DNA from: Candidatus Pacearchaeota archaeon
Lineage (GTDB): Archaea > Nanobdellota > Nanobdellia > Pacearchaeales > GW2011-AR1
DNA length: 13,080 bases
Assembly: GCA_003694055.1 (NCBI GenBank)
Contig: RFLC01000127.1
Coordinates: forward strand, 1-13,080
Direction: 5' to 3'
Below are positions 2,565 to 7,972 of the stretch, one piece after another (position 1 is the first letter of the stretch; each line of letters starts with the position of its first letter). The notes under the pieces were generated by a model, which saw nothing but the letters and a program-made list of their open reading frames with translations, did not search any database and was not told where the DNA came from. A program made the translations under genes and the position numbers.

Positions 2565-2572
2565 TTTAAATA
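2565..2572 (+). promoter_or_regulatory. ileS promoter TATA box, pointing at a short upstream ORF
   Basis: A consensus archaeal TTTAAATA is preceded by an A-rich BRE-like AACCAAATC. Its centre is 25-26 bp before the ATG at 2594 but 98 bp before the ileS ATG. I see no convincing TATA box at the right distance for a leaderless ileS message. The ileS mRNA therefore probably begins at about 2594 and carries a leader of about 73 nt. Confidence 0.6.
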
Positions 2573-2593
2573 CTCTGTGTGCGAGACTTGATT

Positions 2594-2650
2594 ATGACAC
2601 TTGCTAATGAATCGTTGCGCTCAGAGATTATTGGAATTATTTCTAACTAA
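2594..2650 (+). CDS. Candidate isoleucine leader peptide upstream of ileS
   Basis: ATG (2594) to TAA (2648-2650) encodes 18 residues, MTLANESLRSEIIGIISN. Four are isoleucine, all ATT codons packed at 2627-2632 and 2636-2641. The ATG coincides with the predicted transcription start from TTTAAATA, so the peptide would be translated leaderless as the first ORF of the ileS message. The stop codon is 16 nt before the ileS ATG. An Ile-rich peptide ahead of isoleucyl-tRNA synthetase is what an amino-acid-sensing attenuator would look like. Function is inferred, and chance occurrence of so short an ORF cannot be excluded. Confidence 0.45.
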   Translation: MTLANESLRSEIIGIISN

Positions 2651-2671
2651 ATAATTATTTATTCCAATGGT
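2627..2671 (+). promoter_or_regulatory. RNA stem able to sequester the ileS start codon
   Basis: ATTGGAAT (2630-2637) is the exact reverse complement of ATTCCAAT (2661-2668), which contains the first two bases of the ileS ATG (2667-2669). Two G-U pairs and an A-U pair extend it to 2627/2671, so the whole start codon can be paired. An inner 7-bp pairing ATTATTT (2636-2642) with AAATAAT (2649-2655) is a compatible extension of the six outer pairs, leaving a 6-nt loop and a 3' bulge. The 5' arm is formed by the Ile codons of the leader ORF. A ribosome sitting on them would open the stem. The stem is mostly A-U and so only moderately stable. Confidence 0.4.
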
Positions 2672-5555
2672 GGATTTGCATAAACTCGAAGGAGATGTTC
2701 TGAAGTTTTGGGAAGAAAATCAGGTTTACGAGAAGAGAAAGCAGGCGAACGCTGGTGGAAAGAAGTTTTACTTTTTGCAAGGTCCGCCGTACACCTCGGG
2801 AAGGATTCATATTGGCACAGCGTGGAATAATTGTTTGAAGGATATGGCGTTGCGGTACAAGCGCATGAGAGGGTTCAATGTTTGGGACCGAGCAGGGTAT
2901 GACATGCATGGCTTGCCGACAGAGAATGCAGTGCAGAAGAAACTTGGTTTGAAGGACAAGGGTGAGATTGAGAAATTTGGAGTTGGGAATTTTGTGAAGG
3001 AGTGTTACAACTTTTCTGAAACGCATGCTGAGATGATGAGCAAAGACTTGTGGAAGCTAGGGGTTTGGATGGACTTTCCAAACGCTTACAAGCCGATAAC
3101 TCGGGAGTTTATCAGCGGGCAGTGGGCGTTGGCGAAGAAGGCGCACGAGCAGGGCAGACTTTACAAGGGTCTTAAGGTAATGCACTGGGATCCGATATGC
3201 GAGACTGTGCTCGCAAAGCACGAGCTGGAGTACAAGCAGATAAAAGATGATTCTATATTTTTGAAGTTCAAGAGGAAGGGTGCAGAGAAAGAGTATTTCA
3301 TTGTTTGGACGACAACGCCTTGGACAATTCCGTTTAACCTTGCGATTATGGTGAACCCGAACGTGCAGTATGTGCGCGCTCGCGTGGGGGATGAGGTGTG
3401 GGTGGTTGCAAAAGATTTATTGCATGTTTTCGTCACAGGATTGCTTGGCAAGAAGTACGAGGTGTTGGAAGAACTCTCTGGGATGGAGTTGGAAGGTATT
3501 GAGTATGAGCACTTTCTCGACGAGCTGAGCGAGGTTTATAAGAAGTTGAAAGAGAAGAGCAAGAATGTTCACACAATTGTGTTGAGCGAGGAGTATGTTG
3601 ACACTAGCTCGGGAACTGGTTTGGTGCATTGCGCTCCTGGATGCGGACCTGAGGATTTTGAAGTCGGAAAAGCATATGGCATTGAACCCTTGAACACGCT
3701 TAACGAGAAAGGCGAGTTTGAAGGGCTGCCTGCGTTTGAGGGTTGGAGGGCAAAAGTTGACGACGGCAAGTTTATAGAGTTGTTTGAGAAAAAAGGCGCG
3801 CTTGTTGCTAAAACTGAGATTGAGCACGAATACCCTTGTTCGTGGAGAACTCATGAGCCAGTTGTATTTCGCTTGACAGAACAATGGTTTTTGCGCGTGC
3901 AGGATCTTGTGCCGCGCTTGCTTGAGATGAACAAAGAGGTTAGGTGGGTGCCGAAGAAGTTTAGCGAGAGCTATGAGAGGTGGACAGAGAACTTGCGTGA
4001 CAACACGATTACTAGGCAGCGTTATTGGGGTTGCCCCGTGCCGATTTGGGTTAATGAAAACGATGAGAGCGATTTTCTCGTCGTGGGGAACGTTGAAGAG
4101 TTAGAGGAGCTCACAGGAAAGAAATTCACAGACATCGAGTTGCACAGGCCGTTTATCGACGAGGTCGTGATAGAAAAGGATGGAAAGAGATACAAGCGAA
4201 TTGAGGATGTGTTTGATGTCTGGCTTGACTCAGGAACTGCTTCTTGGAACTGCCTTTACAACAGACCTGAACTTATCGAGGAGTACTTTCCGGCAGACCT
4301 TGTGCTAGAGGGAAACGAGCAAACTAGATTGTGGTTTAGCGTCTTGCAAATCTGCTCAGCGATAATGTTCAACTCCACAAGTTACAAGAATGTTTTCGTT
4401 CACGGGATGATTTTTGACTTCGAGGGAATGAAGATGTCAAAGTCGCTTGGAAATGTTATCTCTCCCGACGAGGTAATTGCAAAGCATTCGGTGGATGTGT
4501 TTAGGTATTACATGTGTCAGGCAAAAGCAGGAGAGAACATAAACTTTAGTTGGGACGAGGTAAAGGTTAAACATAGGAATCTCATAATACTTTACAACAT
4601 CTCCCGTTACTTGCTTGACCTAGCGCGCCTCAACAGCTCTGGCGCTCTTGTTGACAACACCGAAGGCGTGGAAGAGCGTTGGTTAAACTCGCTTCTCAAC
4701 TCAACGCTTAAGCGCGTAACAGAACTTTTTGAGAGCTACAATCTCGACAAAACAATAACCGAGATTGAGAGATTTTTCATTCAGCTTTCGCGGGACTACA
4801 TAAAAATTGTGAGGCACAAGAGCGACACAAGCAAGGCAGTGTTTGAGGCGTTGAAAGAGAGCTATGTGAAGTTGCTCAAGATTTTCTCGCCGGTCGCGCC
4901 GTTCGTTACAGAGGCGATTTGGCAGGAACTGCGAGAGGAAGGGATTGTGAGCGAGGAGTCTGTGCACCTGACTAGCTGGCCTGAGCATGACGAGAGCAAG
5001 ATTGACAGAAAGTTGGAGGAGGAATTCGAGCTGGCGTTTGAGTTGATTGAAAAAGGACTTGCGGAGAGAGATAGGAACAAGGTCGGACTTCGCTGGCCGC
5101 TTGCAAAGGCTACGCTTTTTGTCAGTCCGTCGAGCGAGGGCAGGCTGCGCGCAGAGGTTTTGGAGGTTGTTAAGAGGCAATTGAATGTCAAGGCAATTGA
5201 AGTGCAATCCAGAGAGGAGAGCGAGTCAAGCGTGGAACTTGACTTTGAGCTGACTCCAGAGTTGCGACGCGAGGGGCTTGCGAGAGAATTTATTAGGAGG
5301 TTGCAAGAACAGAGGAAAAAGCACGGACTTAAGAAAGGCGAGATGATTGAGGTTAAAGTTGTCGAGGCAAGCGAGGAGATGAGGAGCGCTTTGGAGGACT
5401 TTTCCGACGATATAAAGAGCAAATGCCACATCTCGAAGTTTGAATTTGCGGAAGGCGATGGTTGCGACGCCGGCGCGCGCGACAGCGACGGGGAGTGGAG
5501 CGCGCGCTTCGACATAAAACAAAATTCTGCGCGTTTGGTTTTCAAAAAAGTTTAA
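2667..5555 (+). CDS. ileS: Isoleucyl-tRNA synthetase
   Basis: 962 residues. A class Ia enzyme that charges tRNA-Ile and edits mischarged valine, in the cytoplasm. The Rossmann fold starts with PPYTSGRIHIGT (40-51); the HIGH signature appears here as HIGT. GYDMHGLPTE follows at 77-86. The CP1 editing domain shows WTTTPWTIPFNLA (214-226) and GTGLVHCAPGCGPEDFEVG (316-334). The second catalytic signature KMSKSLGN is at 589-596 and is intact. DVWLDSGTASWN at 517-528 is typical of the Ile/Val/Leu group. A helical anticodon-binding domain (about 640-800) and a short C-terminal domain follow. The last 30 codons are markedly GC-rich. The ATG start gives the normal N-terminus; no Shine-Dalgarno is seen. 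It is preceded by a possible Ile leader ORF. Confidence 0.97.
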   Translation: MVDLHKLEGDVLKFWEENQVYEKRKQANAGGKKFYFLQGPPYTSGRIHIGTAWNNCLKDMALRYKRMRGFNVWDRAGYDMHGLPTENAVQKKLGLKDKGEIEKFGVGNFVKECYNFSETHAEMMSKDLWKLGVWMDFPNAYKPITREFISGQWALAKKAHEQGRLYKGLKVMHWDPICETVLAKHELEYKQIKDDSIFLKFKRKGAEKEYFIVWTTTPWTIPFNLAIMVNPNVQYVRARVGDEVWVVAKDLLHVFVTGLLGKKYEVLEELSGMELEGIEYEHFLDELSEVYKKLKEKSKNVHTIVLSEEYVDTSSGTGLVHCAPGCGPEDFEVGKAYGIEPLNTLNEKGEFEGLPAFEGWRAKVDDGKFIELFEKKGALVAKTEIEHEYPCSWRTHEPVVFRLTEQWFLRVQDLVPRLLEMNKEVRWVPKKFSESYERWTENLRDNTITRQRYWGCPVPIWVNENDESDFLVVGNVEELEELTGKKFTDIELHRPFIDEVVIEKDGKRYKRIEDVFDVWLDSGTASWNCLYNRPELIEEYFPADLVLEGNEQTRLWFSVLQICSAIMFNSTSYKNVFVHGMIFDFEGMKMSKSLGNVISPDEVIAKHSVDVFRYYMCQAKAGENINFSWDEVKVKHRNLIILYNISRYLLDLARLNSSGALVDNTEGVEERWLNSLLNSTLKRVTELFESYNLDKTITEIERFFIQLSRDYIKIVRHKSDTSKAVFEALKESYVKLLKIFSPVAPFVTEAIWQELREEGIVSEESVHLTSWPEHDESKIDRKLEEEFELAFELIEKGLAERDRNKVGLRWPLAKATLFVSPSSEGRLRAEVLEVVKRQLNVKAIEVQSREESESSVELDFELTPELRREGLAREFIRRLQEQRKKHGLKKGEMIEVKVVEASEEMRSALEDFSDDIKSKCHISKFEFAEGDGCDAGARDSDGEWSARFDIKQNSARLVFKKV

Positions 5556-5603: not shown

Positions 5604-6431
5604 ATGATAATTAACGAGGAGTTTTTAAGCAGGTTGAGGAAGTTGTTTGACTTGAACCTTTATGAAGTTAAGGTTTGGACTGCGCTTTTGTCGCGCGGCG
5701 TTTCTACTGCTGGGGAGTTGAGCACAATTTCTGATGTGCCGAGGTCGCGAACTTACGACATTCTTGAGTCGCTTGAGAAAAAAGGCTTTGTTGTGATGAA
5801 GCTTGGCAAACCAATTAAGTTTGTGGCGCTCGAACCAGAGGAAGTTGTTGAGCGAGTGAAAAAGAACCTGATTCACGAGGCGCATGAAAAGTCAAAGCGT
5901 CTTGAGCAACTCAAGGGAGGGGATGTGCTAAAAGAGCTCAACAGCCTTTACAAGAACGGAGTTAAGTATGTTGACCCTGCTGACCTTTCTGGCTCAGTGC
6001 ACGGCAGGCAGAACCTGTACAACCATCTCGATATGCTCGTGCGAGGCGCTGACAAGACTATCACAATCGTGACAACAGAGGATGGGTTGAACAGGAAGTT
6101 CGAAGCGCTCTATCCATCTTTTGAAAAGGCGAAAAAGCGAGGAGTTACTATTAGAATCGCAGCGCCGATAACAAAGAAGAACCTCAAGGTTGCAAAGCAC
6201 CTTGCGAAAATCGCAGAGCTGCGAGACGCAAACCCGAAAAAACTCACTGGGAGGTTTGCAATTATTGACTCTGAGGAGATTATGCTCATGCTAACAGACG
6301 ACTCTTCAATTCATCCTGCATATGACATCGGAGTCTGGCTTTCCACACCTTTCCTCGCAAAATCAATGGAACAGCTTTTTGAGCTAGCTTGGAAAGAGCT
6401 CACGCCGATGAGCAAGGTTAAGATTAAATAA
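5604..6431 (+). CDS. TrmB-family transcriptional regulator
   Basis: 275 residues. Residues 8-75 form the winged helix typical of TrmB proteins, with VPRSRTYDILESLEKKGFV (45-63) matching the recognition helix and wing of the family. A charged helical linker (about 76-115) follows. The C-terminal half (about 130-270) looks like the phospholipase-D-like sensor fold of TrmB, including TITIVTTED (152-160), FEKAKKRGVTIRIAAPIT (173-190) and GRFAIIDSEEIMLML (216-230). TrmB proteins bind DNA and often respond to sugars or other metabolites, but the ligand here cannot be told. The ATG at 5604 follows a purine-rich stretch. It is monocistronic, between ileS (48 bp upstream) and the convergent csm6-like gene. 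Confidence 0.9.
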   Translation: MIINEEFLSRLRKLFDLNLYEVKVWTALLSRGVSTAGELSTISDVPRSRTYDILESLEKKGFVVMKLGKPIKFVALEPEEVVERVKKNLIHEAHEKSKRLEQLKGGDVLKELNSLYKNGVKYVDPADLSGSVHGRQNLYNHLDMLVRGADKTITIVTTEDGLNRKFEALYPSFEKAKKRGVTIRIAAPITKKNLKVAKHLAKIAELRDANPKKLTGRFAIIDSEEIMLMLTDDSSIHPAYDIGVWLSTPFLAKSMEQLFELAWKELTPMSKVKIK

Positions 6432-6469: not shown

Positions 6470-7972
6470 CTAATGAATAATTTTTTCTATTGACAGCTGG
6501 AAGTTGTCGAAGATGTTCTCAACCTTCTTTCCTAGCACATCTTCTAGAACTGACTTTAGCTTGCGCAGGAAATCATCTATTGTTGACACTCCCTCAATAT
6601 TTCTGATTAGCTCTTTTATGTCCCTCAGACTGACACCCTCTAGGCCGTGCCCCATTATTGATTTGTTGCGCAGTTTTGTTAGAGGGTTCTCCTTTTGTTT
6701 TGTGTTCTCATCTGGTTTTGGATAGCCTGCGTTAAGCTGTTTGAAAAACTCTATGGCTGAGAAATACCTGCGAGTTTTCTCTTTGAAATTTGCGCGCTCT
6801 TTTTCAGAGAGCTTGTTCATTTCATTCTCGAGTACAGAACTCAAAAAGAAATAATAAAAATTCTTGCCTGAGTTCACAGACACATTTTCAAATTTTGAGA
6901 AGTAATACTCCTCATTTTTCTTTTGGAAAATTTCTGCGAAGTGGTGGAGATAGATACTTTCAAAGAATTTCTTACGCCCATGTGGGAGCAGATCCTTCTC
7001 AAAGCTCTTGTTAAATACTTCTTCGCCTTTGCTGTTGATTCTCTTGACCTTGTCTCTCTCATTCACAAGCCCTTTGGATTTTAGGAAGTCATACAAAAGT
7101 AGATGCCAGACAGCTTCTTCAATTCTCCATATCCTTCCAGCAACCTCCGCATATCTTCCTTGCTTTAGGCAGACAATTAGGTTAGAGTAAATCAACTCTA
7201 TACCAATGCTAGCTTTCTCTCGATAGTTTCTACCTTCTGGGATGGATGAAAGATTGTAGGCTGAGATTGCCCGTTCACACAACTCTTTTACTTGCTCATC
7301 TTCAGACATCAGGTTTTTGACAGCCATGAAATCGTACATCTTTAAGAATTCCCTAACTTTGTGCCGTAAAATGTGCCTCCTTAACTCTACAAAATTCTTT
7401 TCACTAACTTCTTGATTGTATTCTTTCACTTCATAAACTCTGACGCTAACATTTGAAGGAAGTGCAAACAATGTGGCAGTCTCAAGAGCGCTGTGCATTT
7501 GAGGAGTTCCTCCGGAAACCTCTGTAAACACTGCTTCGTAGGATTTAGCCAGCTCGTTCATTAAGTCAGAAAAGAAAGCTACTAATCTTGGGAAGTCCGT
7601 AGGGTCAAAACTTATGTATTTCAGTTTGACTTCGTAGTCTCGCGACAATATCTTTGTTATTATCTCTCCGAGATACAGGGTGTCCTTTTCGTTTCTTTCC
7701 TTCTGATTTGTGCACACCAAATAAACAATCCTTACGTTATGCTTTTTGATTTTCTCTAAGAACGGCGTGACTAGCGGAAGTTTTATGTGCTGGGAGTATT
7801 CGTCAAAGTTCTTAAGTATGTGCTCAGTAGCGCCGCGGAACGTTTTTTTATTGATGTAAATCATGTGAGTATTTCTATTTGTGTCATACCACTCTTCTCT
7901 TGTTTTCCATCCTTGCCACTCCTTGCCAAATGCTATATCACTCGTGCCAAGGGTTATGAGAGCGCATTTCAC
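6470..7972 (-). CDS. csm6: CARF-HEPN ribonuclease, Csm6-like (type III CRISPR ancillary effector)
   Basis: 500 residues. Proteins of this family are RNases switched on by cyclic oligoadenylate made by Cas10 after target RNA binding. The N-terminal 185 residues look like a CARF sensor: MKCALITLGTSD (1-12), VYLVCTNQKERNEKDT (83-98) and the ligand-loop motif SGGTPQM (153-159). A long helical region leads to a C-terminal HEPN domain with the active-site RX6H motif in LRNKSIMGHG (R435, H442), so the nuclease looks intact. The start is GTG at 7972, the first possible start after an in-frame TAG, with a TATA-like box 26 bp upstream (leaderless). No cas10, csm or cas6 gene is in the window; the CRISPR array is 4.7 kb away. 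A related Csx1/Cas02710-type CARF protein is the alternative. Confidence 0.85.
   Translation of the reverse strand: MKCALITLGTSDIAFGKEWQGWKTREEWYDTNRNTHMIYINKKTFRGATEHILKNFDEYSQHIKLPLVTPFLEKIKKHNVRIVYLVCTNQKERNEKDTLYLGEIITKILSRDYEVKLKYISFDPTDFPRLVAFFSDLMNELAKSYEAVFTEVSGGTPQMHSALETATLFALPSNVSVRVYEVKEYNQEVSEKNFVELRRHILRHKVREFLKMYDFMAVKNLMSEDEQVKELCERAISAYNLSSIPEGRNYREKASIGIELIYSNLIVCLKQGRYAEVAGRIWRIEEAVWHLLLYDFLKSKGLVNERDKVKRINSKGEEVFNKSFEKDLLPHGRKKFFESIYLHHFAEIFQKKNEEYYFSKFENVSVNSGKNFYYFFLSSVLENEMNKLSEKERANFKEKTRRYFSAIEFFKQLNAGYPKPDENTKQKENPLTKLRNKSIMGHGLEGVSLRDIKELIRNIEGVSTIDDFLRKLKSVLEDVLGKKVENIFDNFQLSIEKIIH

Follow-up and report, generated by a model that had tools for sequence, protein, structure and literature searches.

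Some aminoacyl-tRNA synthetase genes of Nanoarchaeota are preceded by short open reading frames (ORFs) in which many codons specify the amino acid that the downstream synthetase charges. We consider these archaeal leader peptides, with their cognate specificity, to be a real system, and we infer from the sequences that it serves in regulation. In the window, by which we mean the whole 13,080-nucleotide stretch of DNA analyzed here, the ORF at positions 2594-2650 is likely a regulatory leader peptide that senses the supply of isoleucyl-tRNA and raises expression of ileS, as one of a wider set of cognate leaders in Nanoarchaeota. More generally, we think it probable that Nanoarchaeota control ileS, leuS, valS, thrS, and pheS by ribosome-mediated attenuation via leaderless, TATA-driven cognate leaders, that this is the first such regulon in Archaea, and that the module can outlive replacement of the gene behind it.

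In the proposed mechanism, a shortage of charged tRNA would cause the ribosome to stall on the cognate codons, and more synthetase would be made as a result; translation of the ORF, stalling as the signal, and the switching on of the gene would all be parts of this model. In the window, the stalled ribosome would cover the 5' arm of a predicted stem and thereby free the ileS start, which is the most likely output there. In many relatives, the structure to be opened would be a hairpin that shortly precedes the next start codon, and in the thrS class the output may be transcription termination, as suggested by T-tracts.

The ileS leader in the window

The features of the locus are as follows.

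2565-2572, + strand: TATA box TTTAAATA, read directly, starting 29 nt before the leader ATG
2594-2650, + strand: leader ORF of 18 codons, MTLANESLRSEIIGIISN followed by a stop, read directly, with counterparts in relatives
2627-2641, + strand: ATT ATT GGA ATT ATT (four Ile codons in five), the presumed stall site, read directly
2630-2637, + strand: 5' arm of the predicted stem, ATTGGAAT, from sequence and fold
2651-2666, + strand: 16-nt spacer from the leader stop to ileS, read directly
2661-2668, + strand: 3' arm of the predicted stem, ATTCCAAT, covering the AT of the ileS ATG, from sequence, fold, and duplex test
2667-5555, + strand: ileS, isoleucyl-tRNA synthetase of 962 amino acids (aa), from Pfam

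The elements named in the first-pass annotation (the TATA box, the 18-codon ORF, its Ile-Ile-Gly-Ile-Ile run, the 16-nt gap, and an 8-nt complement to the ileS start) were all found again when the sequence was re-read. The ileS ATG occupies 2667-2669, 16 nt past the leader stop, no Shine-Dalgarno sequence was seen by eye in the spacer, and 2630-2637 is the exact 8-nt reverse complement of 2661-2668. Based on the TATA spacing, we predict that the leader ORF is read from a leaderless transcript. With four Ile codons among the 17 that follow the ATG, it falls just under the 25% rule used in the survey below.

Relatives in the same genus

The genus is represented here by ten genomes, including the window's own, and the ileS upstream region is readable in nine of them; in G009, the contig starts inside ileS. 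Five of the nine readable members, namely, the window and the following four, have an Ile-rich ORF whose ATG is preceded by a TATA hexamer at a distance of 29 nt.

G004: MQIILISIIEII
G008: MLSILISTVGIII
G002: MQRIFVSITGIGIII
G001: MANRIISKIGIII

The ileS upstream regions of G003, G005, G006, and G007 contain no such Ile-rich leader. Conservation of the ORF and its Ile codons in relatives, which the first-pass annotation had put forward as a check, is therefore borne out in four of the eight readable same-genus relatives and not in the other four.

Pairwise identity among the IleRS proteins of the window, G002, G004, and G008 is 58-79%. The G001 protein shares only 37-39% identity with this group but 82% with its G003 counterpart. 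Nevertheless, the leader region aligned over G001, G002, G004, and G008 has a mean column identity of 76%, and the same four genomes share an upstream gene of 83-85 aa, whose G001 copy is 48-59% identical to the other three. This is the nearest upstream gene in G001 and G002, and another gene intervenes in G004 and G008; the ORFs upstream of ileS in G003 and G005 include no homologue. Because G001 keeps the leader and the shared upstream gene despite its divergent IleRS, we read its ileS as having been replaced in place behind a retained leader. The single genus thus holds two IleRS clades that are about 38% identical (loci L029 and L027 versus L002-L004).

Ile-rich leaders across the class

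We assembled 155 ileS loci from IleRS matches in two overlapping sets of 56 and 234 genomes, part of the matches having been fetched, and used the 152 loci with at least 150 nt upstream. A strict rule called for a TATA-like hexamer followed by an ATG at 26-32 nt, an ORF of 6-40 codons with at least four and at least 30% of one residue, and a limit of 430 nt. Applied to every residue, it returned 15 Ile matches and 2 Lys matches in the 152 upstream regions and none for the remaining 18 residues; in 40 rounds of dinucleotide shuffling, Ile matches averaged 0.1, with a maximum of 1. A looser, uniform rule (600 nt, ATG 26-33 nt after the TATA box, 25%) gave Ile 19, Lys 3, and Leu 1, with shuffle means over 20 rounds of 0.75, 1.25, and 1.6, respectively.

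The 19 ileS leaders analyzed below consist of 18 looser-rule matches plus the window, the weak G228 match having been dropped. They span 15 genera in six families and are a minority of the upstream regions (19/152). Candidates kept outside this set include G055 (a GTG-started VCKIWIII), G175 (no TATA box), and further Ile-rich ORFs without a TATA box.

For background, both strands of 288 loci from archaea were scanned, a set enriched in ileS surroundings that totals 2.09 Mb when overlaps are counted. The scan yielded 24 Ile rows, of which 18 (17 leaders) lie upstream of ileS and 6 elsewhere. It also gave two Thr rows, both before thrS, and two Val rows, both before valS; rows for Leu (23), Lys (13), and Phe (12) came up as well, and we noted no cognate case in them.

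Cognate leaders at other synthetase genes

Further synthetase families were first examined in 15 or 16 genomes, most of which bear an ileS leader. Matches were then found in 135 of 281 genomes for ThrRS, 161 of 281 for ValRS, 152 of 281 for PheS, and 79 of 188 for archaeal LeuRS, and the upstream regions read were those of the best 30 loci per family search and some additional stretches. The leaders recovered are listed here.

thrS, G148: MVVNNIFETQVLTTTTTTA
thrS, G271: MNRINITRTFSTSTTTTTTTA
thrS, G268: MKMAADWFDKLEELILLLLTTATTTTTC
thrS, G312: MAKNLFYYNLTLLSTTSTTTTTA
thrS, G144: MASKKTTTTN
thrS, G295: MVLDYLFEIIFDLPLYSSTTTTTC (22% Thr, just outside the uniform rule)
thrS candidate, G259: MNCIQIQTSTTTA (no TATA box, not used)
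valS, G148: MICVVVVVA
valS, G268: MNRLLKVYMVLVV
pheS, G268: MDTYVVSFNHIFFFI
pheS, G277: MKHLNQFAVSFGLDSAFFFF
leuS, G268: MKLNGLDLLLLLVL
leuS, G024: MKLTHYQFVLVLVLVVALL
leuS, G026: MDISKQILFLNALLISVLLLLL

One genome, G268, has cognate leaders at all five genes (ileS, thrS, valS, pheS, and leuS). The uniform rule, scored for Ile, Thr, Val, Phe, and Leu, gave the following matches, with the number of upstream regions in parentheses.

ileS (152): Ile 19, Leu 1
thrS (67): Thr 5, Leu 2
valS (65): Val 2, Leu 1
pheS (40): Phe 2
leuS (47): Leu 3, Val 1

Over these five residues, 31 of 36 matches are cognate, compared with a mean of 10.3 and a maximum of 20 in 20,000 label permutations. The correspondence persists when ileS is removed (12 of 16 cognate; permuted mean, 4.1; p 4e-5 in 50,000 permutations); both figures come from genomes partly picked for their ileS leaders, from relatives that are not independent, and from sets that differ in depth. 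Outside the matrix, Lys scored three matches at ileS and one at leuS (counted before 27 leuS loci were added), and Ser scored one at pheS. Candidates left out at pheS are G144, G312, G153, and others without a TATA box, as well as G253 (20% Phe, 491 nt away). Neither the trpS/tyrS set (23 of 30 loci) nor the serS/proS/glyS set (15 of 19) gave a leader match; the remaining loci were dropped because their longest ORF belonged to a different gene or their start was ambiguous.

Anatomy of the leaders

The full set comprises 32 leaders (19 ileS, 6 thrS, 2 valS, 2 pheS, and 3 leuS). A TTTAAA or TTTATA hexamer starts 29 nt before the ATG in 14 of them, 30 nt before it in 6, and 31 nt before it in 4. 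Since a TATA box at 26-33 nt is built into the rule, the informative comparison is one that drops the TATA requirement: a hexamer at 26-33 nt precedes 30 of 57 cognate-rich short ORFs versus 50 of 1561 other short ORFs (Fisher p 1e-26, with nested ORFs counted separately). The placement of the cognate codons lies outside the selection rule, and all 32 leaders have at least three cognate codons among their last six.

Around or after the stop codon, 21 of 32 leaders have a predicted stem-loop with z below -1 (mean z, -1.6), and the window, at z +0.5, has none. In four genus members, the stem after the stop reads GCGAG/CTTGC, GCGAG/CTCGC, GCGGG/CTCGC, and GCAAG/CTTGC. Because MAFFT placed these four hairpins out of register, covariation was read by eye: pair 3 is G-U, G-C, G-C, and A-U, and pair 4 is A-U, A-U, G-U, and A-U. 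At the thrS and valS genes of G148 (L313 and L334), the leader stop appears by eye to lie in a GNRA-type tetraloop (GUAA and GUGA) of a hairpin.

In 17 of 32 leaders, the distance from the stop to the next ATG is 24-38 nt; in 300 shuffles, 5.1 leaders on average and 15 at most had such a distance. What that next reading frame encodes varies; it may be an ORF of 16-29 aa (ORF2), another short ORF, the main gene, or a gene of 71-120 aa. The stop of ORF2 overlaps the ileS start in G001, G004, G008, G236, and G269. At eight loci (L049, L023, L050, L156, L173, L180, L438, and L439), a gene of 71-120 aa stands between the leader and ileS or leuS, and the eight encoded proteins are mutually unrelated and have no Pfam match. 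By eye, several leader-bearing genes also have a separate TATA-like sequence between the leader and the gene, from which some transcripts may start without the leader.

How stalling might be read out

The first-pass annotation proposed translational attenuation in two parts, a leader peptide that senses isoleucine and a stem that sequesters the ileS start, and the two have fared differently. The leader-peptide half is strongly supported, given the relatives and the other synthetases with cognate codons. The stem half does only modestly better than chance. The fold of 2594-2700, suggested as a check, is no better than shuffles (z +0.55, with 137 of 200 shuffles equally or more stable), and the whole-leader fold was rejected as a signal on that ground. 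The local pairing of the leader 3' end with the ileS start (-13.7 kcal/mol) is matched by 0.8% of composition-preserving spacer shuffles and by 21.7% of synonymous leader recodings; that is, it beats 99.2% of the shuffled spacers but only 78% of the recoded leaders. The arrangement of Ile codons paired with the start was not seen in the relatives examined. We therefore regard the start-sequestering stem of the window as modestly supported at best, standing little above chance.

A general start-site switch was considered and rejected: across 26 leaders, predicted accessibility of the gene start showed no consistent direction with the codon position of the ribosome (the target was the main gene for 23 leaders and the next start for G261, G021, and G011; the window lacks an at-stop value). 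With the ribosome placed at the last cognate codon, the unpaired fraction of the next start rose from 0.42 to 0.56 in the 20 leaders whose next start is 15-38 nt away, compared with 0.45 to 0.52 with shuffled spacers. The opening was reached by 5% of shuffles or fewer in 6 of the 20 (G021, G011, G004, G001, the pheS leader of G268, and G231) and by 23% of shuffles in the window; accessibility was flat or falling in 7 of the 20, and placing the ribosome at the stop codon had the same effect as placing it at the last cognate codon. Of 31 regions from leader to gene, 13 contain a run of at least five T's, versus 5.8 expected (p 0.001 by mononucleotide shuffling, which preserved composition but not dinucleotides; the 16-nt spacer of the window was left out); five of the six thrS leaders are followed by one. 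Based on the next-start accessibility and T-tract results, we suggest that ileS and leuS may have a translational output and thrS a transcriptional one. For the window, the 16-nt spacer leaves start opening or reinitiation as the candidates.

Alternative explanations

Could the leader ORF mainly hand ribosomes to the next start, by termination-reinitiation coupling, and sense no charging at all? The distances from stop to start are short (16 nt in the window; ORF2 lies 27-29 nt downstream in several relatives), and the ORF2 stop overlaps the ileS start in five genomes. Coupling of this kind has been described for archaea, with little to none past 30 nt (PMC12548453). However, it leaves unexplained both the match of residue to downstream synthetase and the crowding of cognate codons at the 3' end, and we consider it unlikely. 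Transcription attenuation, through a T-tract or an FttA-type mechanism, differs from our preferred reading in the output step alone, and we hold it tentatively as a possible variant. The T runs noted above, above all those of the thrS leaders, speak for it, and archaeal polarity is likely due to FttA according to the same paper (PMC12548453); yet 13 of 18 ileS leaders (G000 excluded) have no such T-tract, and the window spacer is too small for one.

That the window ORF arose by chance in AT-rich DNA seems to us highly improbable. One short ORF may arise randomly, the fold is unremarkable, and the 25% rule is narrowly missed, but conservation and TATA spacing in relatives, together with shuffle means of 0.1 and 0.75 Ile matches per 152 upstream regions, argue otherwise. 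Even less credible is a T-box-like element or another known tRNA-binding riboswitch: although several of the same genes are targets of bacterial T-boxes, no Rfam family at gathering scores matches the window or 17 leader-bearing loci, so no T-box was found, and the element that the loci share is an ORF. Sensing of tRNA charging by a cognate leader peptide thus remains the reading that we prefer.

Relation to known systems

Leader-peptide attenuation is a textbook bacterial mechanism. The nearest single case is the pheST attenuator of Escherichia coli, in which the leader peptide PheM likewise carries cognate codons before an aminoacyl-tRNA synthetase gene; that system is bacterial and has a Shine-Dalgarno start and an intrinsic terminator, whereas the present one has a TATA promoter, a predicted leaderless ORF, and no consistent terminator. 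The thrL, ilvL, leuL, and trpL leaders likewise are short ORFs that string together codons for the amino acid under regulation, but they control bacterial biosynthetic operons rather than synthetases in Nanoarchaeota. In ermC-type translational attenuation, a stalled ribosome frees a sequestered start, as one would do in the window; ermC, however, senses an antibiotic and not tRNA charging, and the sequestering stem here has only the modest standing described above. Bacterial synthetase T-boxes share target genes and signal with the leaders, but here the sensor would be an ORF.

We know of no established archaeal case of leader-peptide attenuation. None was found in the excerpts that made up the open-licence literature searched, and a paper that joins DPANN and leader peptides concerns bacteriocin-type leaders (PMC6393860). 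Judged from sequence, then, the system appears to be new in domain, promoter type, and start type, and its general kind is known. It suggests that archaea, like bacteria, may sense amino acid shortage via stalled ribosomes. If it works as proposed, on messages whose first codon is that of the leader, the logic of attenuation is not tied to a bacterial promoter, terminator, or Shine-Dalgarno start, and in DPANN archaea that have not been cultured the leaders would give a readout of amino acid stress. Reporters could test the proposal directly on the loci collected here.

Other features of the window

A palindromic motif, GTATATACNNNNGTATATAC, lies at 2300-2319 and has 70 copies in the 995-kb genome to which the window belongs, versus 0 for the reversed pattern. 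It also occurs upstream of valS and leuS in the same genome and is possibly a dispersed regulator or nucleoid site. Farther downstream, 6470-7972 on the - strand encodes a Csx1/Csm6-like CARF-HEPN protein (PADLOC E value, 6e-37; Pfam Csm6 CARF below the cut-off), and this gene is adjoined by that of a TrmB-type regulator at 5604-6431.
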